Assembly (NCBI GenBank): GCA_016932735.1
Contig: JAFGCI010000002.1
Location: 173,383 to 237,382, forward strand
Origin: Candidatus Aenigmatarchaeota archaeon
Lineage (GTDB): Archaea > Aenigmatarchaeota > Aenigmatarchaeia > QMZP01 > QMZT01
Direction of reading: 5' to 3'
DNA length: 64,000 nt
Shown: positions 25,977 to 45,327 of the stretch, one piece after another
How the letters are laid out: each line of letters begins with the position of its first letter
How positions within the stretch are numbered: the first letter of the stretch is position 1
Translations under genes and position numbers: made by a program
Notes under the pieces: model-generated
What the model saw: only the letters and a program-made list of their open reading frames with translations
Database searches by the model: none
Told to the model about the DNA's origin: nothing

Positions 25977-26008
25977 TTTGAACCCGGGTCCAGAGAGTGA
26001 CAGTCTCT

Positions 26009-26044
26009 GATGACTAGTCCTCAAGACGCACAAAATGTGCGTCA
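26009..26044 (-). other. tRNA-Asp intron 1 (~36 nt, between D-arm and anticodon arm; exact ends ambiguous by a few nt)
   Basis: TGAC...GTCA closing 4-bp helix at the ends and internal GACGCACA/TGTGCGTC hairpin, BHB-like. Confidence 0.65.
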
Positions 26045-26121
26045 AGTGTTAGACCACTACACTACCGAAGCATTAATAGCTAATATATTAATGGCATATA
26101 AATAAAAACGTATAGAAATAT

Positions 26122-26231
26122 ATGGCGGCGTTCTACCCTTCCCCTGGAAAGAGTACAAAGTAGACCGCGGGAAAGCTTAACTTCTGTGTTCGAAATGGGA
26201 ACAGGTGTTCCTTTCCGCTTTGGCCGCCTAG
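26122..26231 (-). rRNA. 5S ribosomal RNA
   Basis: GGCGGCCAAAGCGGAAAGGAACACCTGTTCCCATTTCGAACACAGAAGTTAAGC...AACGCCGCC; terminal helix pairs. Confidence 0.94.
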
Positions 26232-26399
26232 ATTGTATATATGGAGCGTTTATTTTATAAACTTATGCTTCATTTTCATATCGTCAAAAGTCGAATTATA
26301 AATCGTTTTTTTGATTTAAAGGAAATTAAAAATCCAAAAAAACGTCAGATGACAAAAAAATGAAGAAAAATATTTATATGCATTGTTTCTTAATTTATA

Positions 26400-26690
26400 A
26401 TTGATAGTATGACATCCGGGCCCATCGGCTGGAATATGAAGCATGATATGACGCTCAGATGCATCTATTCGGTATTCTCTGTATGTTGCATCCTTGCATA
26501 ATCGGGGATGATTCTTTTTTCGTTCTTTTTTCCGCGGATGACCCGAATACCGACGCGCTAGAAGGGTCAAAAGGTAGAGGATTGCGGGGACATCAAGGAC
26601 TAAGTTCCGGGAATGTGCTCCTTAGAAGATTTTTGCGTCCCTCTGATGTTTCCCCCGCGATCCAGCTTATAGAAGTATTCCAATTATTAG
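26400..26690 (+). ncRNA. Structured RNA A of unknown family (paralog of RNA B)
   Basis: TATA-like AATATTTATATG ~25 nt upstream; 33-nt block AGGTAGAGGATTGCGGGGACATCAAGGACTAAG identical to RNA B; closes with CTGATGTTTCCCCCGCGATC; distal TTTTTT; ends approximate. Confidence 0.65.
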
Positions 26691-26796
26691 CTATTTTTTC
26701 ATAATATTCTTAATAATATAAATAAATTTAATTTTTTTGTATAATAAAATTAGCGTAATATAGTAATGTTTATAAATATTGGCTGCAATAAATTAA

Positions 26797-27068
26797 TTGA
26801 TGGGTATGAAAATTCTTGGAATACCACTAATGGAAGTGTGGAGTGGCTCTGAGTCGGTTTATTCCCATCAGAAAAAGGAGTTCACCTGTATACATGCATC
26901 TTAGGAGGTGAATAACCCATAGTTCGAGAAAAGGAGGTAGAGGATTGCGGGGACATCAAGGACTAAGCCTAAATCTCTGCTACTTCGGGCAGAACCCGAA
27001 GAGAGAGGGTAAAGAGCGTAATCTTTGAAAATTTTGAGTCCCGCTGATGTTTCCCCGCGATCATCATA
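26797..27068 (+). ncRNA. Structured RNA B of unknown family (paralog of RNA A)
   Basis: TATA-like GTTTATAAATATT at ~26768 upstream; shared 33-nt block at 26935..26967 and 3' strand at 27038..27062; hairpins TTCACCT/AGGTGAA, CTTCGGG/CCCGAAG; ends approximate. Confidence 0.68.
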
Positions 27069-27171
27069 AAGCCGATAAGAAGCTATTTATTCCCTTACAT
27101 TTATAAATATTTGCATAATTTCTGGTATCTTTATATCAATTAATATAAAAACAATCTCACATTAGTTGTTT

Positions 27172-28653
27172 ATGGCTGAAGATTACGACAGAATACAGAA
27201 TCTGGCAGATCAGAGAGGAATATTCTTCCCCGCGGCAGAAATTCACGGCTCGCTTGCCGGTTTCTGGGATTTCGGGCACACCGGCTCTAACATAAGGAGA
27301 AAGATAGTGGAGCTCTGGAGGCGTGATATAGTAAGAGGTCTTGGTTCCATCGAGATGGACGGATGCATCATACTTCCAAAGCAGGTTTTTCAGGCTTCAG
27401 GCCATTTGAAATCATTTGCGGATCCAGTTGTCCTCTGCACTAAATGCAAGAAGAGCTACAGGGCGGACAAGGTAGTAGAGGACGTCCTTAAAACGGAAAT
27501 CCCTGAAGCTATGCCTTCCGAGAAGTTTGACGAGATGATAAAGGATAACAATATAAAATGCCCATCATGCAAAGGTTCTCTGGGCAAAACAGACAAATTC
27601 AATATGATGATAGGCGTCACAGCCGGCGTCGTTGCCGAAGGCTATAATGCTTATTTAAGACCTGAGACATGCCAGTCGATCTTTGCGAGTTTTATGAAGC
27701 TTGTGAAAACGTCAAGGGTCTCATTGCCACTTCCTATTTCCCAGGTGGGAAAATCCTTCAGGAATGAGATTTCACCGAGGCAATCCCTTCTAAGGAGCAG
27801 GGAATTCACGCAGATGGAAACCGAAATCTTTTTCAACCCTAAAAAAATTGATGAATGCCCTGATTTCGATTCTGTCAAAGACTACAAGCTTAAGATGAAA
27901 CTCCTTAGCGAAAAGGACGTTAAAGACATGACAGTTGAAGAGGTCTATACAAAAAAGATAGTTTCGGGTAAATCTATTGCATATTATCTTGCAGTCTGCC
28001 AGAAGTTCTTTGAGCATTGTGGAATTCCTGTTGAGAAAATGCGATTCAGGGAGCTTGAAGATGATGCACGTGCTTTCTATTCTAAAGAGACATGGGATTT
28101 TGAGGTCCTGACATCGACAGGATGGCTCGAGCTCGTTGCAAACAACTACAGAACTGATTATGATTTGAAATCACACTCTGATGTCTCAGGAACTGACTTA
28201 TCTATTACAGAAGATGAAGAGAAGTTCGTCCCCCATGTCTGGGAAATATCAATGGGTCTTGACAGGACGTTCTATGCGGTCTTTGAATCTGCTCTCGGAG
28301 AGCGCGACGGCAAACCGCTTCTTTCGCTTCCAAGATATCTTGCACCATATGATGCAGTGGTCCTCCCGCTTGTAAGAAAAGACGGAGTCGATGACAAAGC
28401 GAGAGGGGCGTTCAATTTGATAAAGCTGGACTTTGATGTCAAATATGACGAGAAGCAATCCATCGGAAAAAGGTATCTTATCTATGATGAACTCGGCGTT
28501 CCTCTCGCAGTAACGATAGATTATGATTCTCTTGAAAAGAACGACTGCACTATCCGCGACAGGGATACGGCAAAACAGAAAAGAGTCCAAATAAGCGAAC
28601 TGCCTGAAATCCTTGCAAGAATGAAAAAAGGGGAAGATATATTCAATGATTAA
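27172..28653 (+). CDS. glyS: Glycyl-tRNA synthetase (archaeal/eukaryal class II type)
   Basis: GFWDFGHTGSNIRRKIVELWRRD, RPETCQSIF, FRNEISPRQSLLRSREFTQMETEIF, EISMGLDRTFYAV; own upstream TATA. Confidence 0.96.
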   Translation: MAEDYDRIQNLADQRGIFFPAAEIHGSLAGFWDFGHTGSNIRRKIVELWRRDIVRGLGSIEMDGCIILPKQVFQASGHLKSFADPVVLCTKCKKSYRADKVVEDVLKTEIPEAMPSEKFDEMIKDNNIKCPSCKGSLGKTDKFNMMIGVTAGVVAEGYNAYLRPETCQSIFASFMKLVKTSRVSLPLPISQVGKSFRNEISPRQSLLRSREFTQMETEIFFNPKKIDECPDFDSVKDYKLKMKLLSEKDVKDMTVEEVYTKKIVSGKSIAYYLAVCQKFFEHCGIPVEKMRFRELEDDARAFYSKETWDFEVLTSTGWLELVANNYRTDYDLKSHSDVSGTDLSITEDEEKFVPHVWEISMGLDRTFYAVFESALGERDGKPLLSLPRYLAPYDAVVLPLVRKDGVDDKARGAFNLIKLDFDVKYDEKQSIGKRYLIYDELGVPLAVTIDYDSLEKNDCTIRDRDTAKQKRVQISELPEILARMKKGEDIFND

Positions 28654-45054: not shown

Positions 45055-45327
45055 GCAGAGGCTGGATCGGGGGGCCAGGCGTACCCTGTTACTGCAAACC
45101 GTCTTTATGGCAGGATCGAGACCTTCGGGCGGCAGCAATCGTATATGGATGCCCGCTGATTTGACGTTGAGGCCCTGTCCTGCCGGATCGTTATCATGGT
45201 GAAACGGGTCAGGCCCTGACCGGAGCAGCCCTAAGCTATGGCATTGATGCTGGCGGGGTCGCAGGGAAGAGAAGAATCGGCGATCAGCTGAAATGTATGA
45301 TACTGTCCACCGAGGGACCGCCTCTGC
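45055..45327 (+). ncRNA. ffs: 7S signal recognition particle RNA
   Basis: Terminal helix GCAGAGGC/GCCTCTGC; S-domain core GTGAAACGGGTCAGGCCCTGACCGGAGCAGCCCTAAGC; no credible CDS. Confidence 0.88.

Follow-up and report, generated by a model that had tools for sequence, protein, structure and literature searches.

A tandem RNA pair from an archaeal family not described before, in which a short ORF typically ends just before a kink-turn

The window, the whole stretch of 64,000 nucleotides analysed in this study, contains two neighbouring segments, copies A and B, that share a 100% identical 33-nt block (26572-26604 and 26935-26967) and whose 3' strands (26631-26655 and 27032-27056) show 92% identity. 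Folding places a long stem in both copies, GATTGCGGGGA-CATCA-A-GGAC / GTCC-NNC-TGATG-TTT-CCCCGCGATC. A preliminary description of this DNA had reported the block, a long bulged stem and the matching 3' strands, and had read the copies as paralogous structured RNAs of an unassigned family. Alignment and folding confirmed the block and the stem, and the 3' strands indeed match. The paralogy holds for the 3' domains but does not extend to the 5' domains, which are of differing design. The fold of copy B beats those of shuffled sequences (z -3.2); copy A, folded together with its flanks, gives a weaker value (z -1.2, with 9 of 100 shuffles equally good).

At the 5' end of each copy lies a short ORF whose translation is very probable, judging from the sequence comparisons below. 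This ORF, a kink-turn in copy A and a phylum-wide family all go beyond the preliminary description, whose transcripts began too far downstream; the predicted transcripts start further 5' and include the ORF. On the plus strand, RNA A has a TATA-like box (TTTATATGC, 26373-26381); the succession of TATA-like box, a few nucleotides and ATG recurs in relatives, and we infer that transcription of RNA A starts at about 26402. Its ORF (26409-26501, encoding MTSGPIGWNMKHDMTLRCIYSVFSVCCILA), supported by a frame test over 45 relatives, ends with the stop TAA at 26499-26501, at a distance of 3 nt from the kink-turn box. It is followed by the kink-turn stem-loop (26502-26546) and by a 3' domain (26577-26664), recognised from folds and comparison, in which the long stem surrounds the hairpin GGA-AUGUGC-UCC. 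The T6 tract noted previously near the end of copy A is at most a putative terminator. RNA B, on the same strand, has a TATA-like box (TTTATAAAT, 26769-26777) that is kept in the same-genus genome and an ORF (26806-26904, encoding MKILGIPLMEVWSGSESVYSHQKKEFTCIHAS) that is also found there and whose stop TAG overlaps an SD-like AGGAGGTGA. In the folds, a hairpin around this stop (26881-26912) pairs TTCACCT (26881-26887) with the SD-like AGGTGAA (26906-26912). The 3' domain of RNA B (26943-27062) has the long stem around AAAGA-GCGUAA-UCUUU (27011-27026) and an additional CTTCGGG/CCCGAAG hairpin.

We searched 26380-27180 with the covariance models of Rfam 15 and obtained zero matches even at E<=10; in the corresponding loci of 12 relatives, tRNA alone reached the gathering threshold. 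The archaeal RNase P RNA model (RF00373), which the preliminary description had singled out for this check, did not match at the locus of the pair. Its sole notable match was a full-length one on another contig (C1), which at 79.8 bits falls below the gathering score of 84. A 5S RNA lies just upstream of the pair on the opposite, minus strand (26120-26231), and SRP RNA, previously placed at 45.1 kb, was found at 45055-45327, separate from the pair. Adjoining the 5S RNA is a tRNA-like sequence (GCTTCGGTAGTGTAGTGGT...GGACCCGGGTTC, 25984-26074, minus strand) that is apparently split by an insert, and a shorter version of it occurs in the same-genus genome (L069); ARAGORN found no tRNA over the window.

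For comparison, the one same-genus genome available was searched with a model built from the two window copies. The model recovered the same tandem pair (E about 1e-13), with a spacing of 368 nt versus 363 nt in the window, so the pair did not arise by chance. Covariation in related genomes had also been proposed as a check, and two double-sided changes were present in the stem of the same-genus genome, G26584-C26658 to A-U and A26590-U26649 to G-C. Together with the empty Rfam search, these changes bear out the claim of a structured RNA pair of unassigned family, and conservation of the tandem pair is well supported. ORF B is unchanged there in length and frame (MKLLGIPLIEVW...KKEFTCIHAS, then the stop), five of the six substitutions outside its variable middle fall at third codon positions when counted by eye, and the sequence of the stop hairpin is conserved within the genus. 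Except for a single match that is short and weak, no DNA similarity to the 5' domain of B extends beyond the genus. In the same-genus genome the 3' domains of the two copies are almost identical while the 5' domains differ, suggesting that 3' domains are homogenised within a genome. Positions 1501-1598 and 1869-1966 of that locus (L078) show about one difference over some 90 nt, which suggests gene conversion between them.

The same comparison bears on glyS, which lies directly downstream of copy B in the window. This position could indicate that A and B form a leader regulating glyS. However, the same-genus pair is flanked by an RNase Z-like gene upstream and a small Zn-ribbon gene downstream, and glyS lies there on a different contig (L037) behind a different gene, so the association with glyS noted previously is not conserved. 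In none of the other relatives examined does glyS follow the RNA, and tracts 5' of glyS in the window suggest that it has a promoter of its own. We therefore regard a glyS leader as very unlikely.

The family proved to extend well beyond the genus. BLAST of the core against 61 relatives found nothing outside the source genome except short chance matches, and exact core patterns were absent from the viral and genome collections searched. A four-sequence model (R2) gave a weak match in another family (L080) that is homologous in layout and proved real, sharing GGGATGATTC...GGATGACC with copy A; two further weak R2 matches (L079 and L083) were rejected because they lie inside coding sequence. We then used the kink-turn pattern GGGATGATTCN{12,36}GGATGACC, from which the upstream region was left out. 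It matched once in each of 17 of the 156 genomes of the class and never in the reversed control, and the named carriers of a stricter form were mostly Candidatus Aenigmatarchaeota. A bacterial (L129) and a viral (L132) sequence had the kink-turn pattern and no ORF, and were taken as chance matches. A model of the module found matches at E<=0.001 in 38 of the 156 phylum genomes, assigned to Aenigmatarchaeota by named matches, and in two genomes outside the phylum, where about 0.4 false genomes are expected among the 392 searched. In the two outsiders, too, a short ORF precedes the box and stops 3 nt or 0 nt short of it. The majority of the genomes searched gave no match at this threshold; genome incompleteness and strict filters may account for part of this. 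Five weak matches of a later model, R3 (L168, L170, L171, L173 and L179), were left out of all counts. In the pattern search a genome usually held one copy. As a separate observation, one genome of family f12 has four copies; extra ORF-kink-turn copies of f12 (L155, L163, L164 and L165, in genomes G053 and G076) were seen, some of which precede unrelated small genes without Pfam matches. On this sequence evidence, the locus holds, in tandem, two representatives of an archaeal RNA family that has not been described and is absent from Rfam, and the family itself is well supported.

Members share a common anatomy, in which a promoter is followed by an ORF of about 20-40 codons beginning a few nucleotides past the presumed start site, and the stop codon usually lies exactly 3 nt before GGGAUGAUUC...GGAUGACC, the segment that shows the covariation of a kink-turn. 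Among the 17 pattern matches, an in-frame stop was located exactly 3 nt upstream of the box in 15, at 2 nt in one and not at all in one, and an ATG-started ORF ended at that stop in 16. We also compared reading frames in 45 loci from model R3 plus two others. In these, the frame closed by this stop had a mean open length of 36 codons versus 14 and 17 in the other frames, and it was open for at least 20 codons in 40 of 45 loci versus 8 and 13. A stop was present at 37 of 45 loci (TGA 17, TAA 15, TAG 5), a count that is partly biased because R3 includes 14 nt 5' of the box (A9 being fitted to the model); the pattern-based 15 of 17 and the open-frame test are free of this bias. The ORF and its stop spacing are thus well supported by sequence. 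In a crude scan, 16 of 34 loci had a TATA-like box at a distance of about 28-42 nt from the ATG on its 5' side, which makes leaders of a few nucleotides likely. We also considered a second ORF that would restart at GGGAUGAUU (MIP...) and dropped it, as its frame is not maintained.

The peptides show no conservation beyond close relatives. Most short ORFs have a Cys codon near their end and several downstream proteins, the Zn-ribbon targets, are Cys-rich, as might be expected of classical attenuation in which the short ORF encoded a leader peptide that responds to one amino acid, cysteine. However, several members lack Cys (L164, L165, L172 and L174), and the codon often belongs to GCURAUUKGGG, a stretch conserved around the stop, which means that its conservation may be at the RNA level. 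We consider attenuation of this kind improbable.

The kink-turn of copy A, as drawn on the window sequence, consists of a C-stem (TCGGG/CCCGA), a GAU bulge (26507-26509), tandem G.A pairs (26510-26511 with 26540-26541), a U.U pair (26512/26539) and a short inner stem with a pyrimidine-rich loop. In the family element the inner stem reads UCC/GGA, and the covariation score of the kink-turn helices was 0.165 against 0.078 ± 0.021. In a larger set it rose to 0.281 against 0.141 ± 0.015, a value reached by 0 of 500 shuffles, with 39 cells changed on both sides. Both helices covary, the inner C-G becoming U-A in 14 sequences, for example. The outer stem is short (2-5 pairs), and roughly one quarter to one third of the members leave its third position unpaired. 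With a 3-nt bulge, tandem G.A/A.G pairs and two covarying helices, the element has the features of an L7Ae-type kink-turn, and its pairing is well supported. Rules have been published for kink-turns of l7ae leaders that fold only upon L7Ae binding (PMC6298567), and the GAU bulge, tandem G:A/A:G, G:C at -1b:-1n and a 3b:3n pair without C or G agree with them. The source genome encodes L7Ae-family proteins, and L7Ae is predicted to bind the kink-turn of copy A. In copy B the ORF and 3' stem are kept, and the SD/anti-SD hairpin overlapping the stop codon replaces the kink-turn. The geometry of the element (AUGAU ... AUGA with U.U) also agrees with a box C/D guide sRNA lying behind a short ORF by chance. 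We find this extremely unlikely: where RUGAUGA (box C) and CUGA (box D) would be expected, members have AUGAUUC and AUGA, inspection showed no C'/D' pair in them, conserved guides are absent, and the inter-box loop of 9-34 nt is unconserved between families.

What follows the module differs among families. In f12, f6 and f28, an SD followed by a small Cys-rich gene lies within about 45-145 nt downstream of it, the f12 proteins matching the RPB9 zinc ribbon (PF02150), and in f29 a TFS-like gene lies downstream. No gene directly follows in f1, f4, f5, f14 and f24, where a stem with an NRGA-G-loop-UCYN hairpin recurs; the variable pair of this hairpin is A-U, U-A or G-C. The hairpin, found by inspection and a regular-expression search without shuffle control, is missing from some members. 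In one genus, a conserved basic peptide of about 21 amino acids (such as MGNKTWVRLVLTKYRSRKDRK) occurs after the RNA (L133, L134, L136 and L182), and the one tested had no Pfam match. The module does not lie in the l7ae 5' UTR, its neighbours being glyS, Zn-ribbon and other genes. Of the marks of a uORF leader, the ORF signature is present, and a downstream gene occurs in f12, f6, f28 and f29 but not in the window lineage, where no gene is cleanly positioned for regulation and a long stem bearing the NRGA-loop-UCYN hairpin is found instead. For this reason, A and B are probably stand-alone RNAs derived from a leader design.

This arrangement allows for a housekeeping role, in which A and B would be non-coding RNAs forming an RNP scaffold together with L7Ae, and their short ORF would be a by-product or merely protect the 5' end. 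The usual single copy per genome, the long conserved 3' stem and NRGA-loop-UCYN hairpin recurring in families without a downstream gene, and the missing coupled gene of the window lineage all fit such a role. However, a fixed 3-nt stop spacing with any of three stops, together with the open frame, requires translation to matter, and in several families the element leads into an SD-bearing gene. As the stop spacing holds whichever of the three stop codons is used, we favour a regulatory use and judge a housekeeping scaffold rather unlikely.

The occurrence of the family across the phylum, in some species before small zinc-ribbon genes, points to a translation-sensing control RNA. With some confidence, we propose from the sequence evidence that it is a regulatory RNA gated by translation, a ribosome that completes the ORF competing with L7Ae for the same stretch. 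Each transcript would open with a near-leaderless ORF of about 30 codons. Judging from ribosome footprint size, a ribosome terminating at the stop would sit over GGGAUGAUU, the kink-turn's 5' strand, and L7Ae binding would lock the alternative state, the kink-turn itself. Complementarity between segments of the ORF and this kink-turn strand (mean z -1.32; below -1.64 in 19 of 44, about half) could give about half of the members a third conformer. Translation of the uORF and L7Ae availability would then jointly set the conformation of the RNA and hence downstream accessibility, in several families that of the SD belonging to a small gene of Zn-ribbon or TFS-like type. Copy B would use its SD/anti-SD hairpin at the stop codon in place of the kink-turn. 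For the gene-less form, it is a tentative possibility that a stand-alone RNA has its fold gated by translation of the ORF it carries, with termination and L7Ae competing for a single kink-turn; such an RNA would report the balance between translating ribosomes and unbound L7Ae and act in trans through the 3' stem.

Kink-turn leaders regulated by L7Ae have been described in l7ae and nop5 mRNAs (PMC5539422, PMC6298567). The present module resembles them in the GAU bulge, the protein-dependent -1b:-1n and 3b:3n positions, its place in 5' regions and, in several families, the nearby SD. However, a short ORF is not described in these papers, whereas here the kink-turn lies 3 nt past a stop codon, the targets are others and many members have no downstream gene. 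As in bacterial uORF and leader-peptide regulators (attenuators and translation-coupled leaders), translation of the short ORF would remodel the RNA downstream. Unlike them, the module is archaeal, has an L7Ae-type kink-turn instead of a terminator hairpin, encodes unconserved peptides and occurs in gene-less versions. In the open-licence PMC literature we found no archaeal leader-peptide control coupled to an L7Ae-type kink-turn and little about structured RNAs in the phylum. The family adds a conserved RNA missing from Rfam and would provide a defined, testable link of translation termination to an RNA-protein switch in uncultured archaea.
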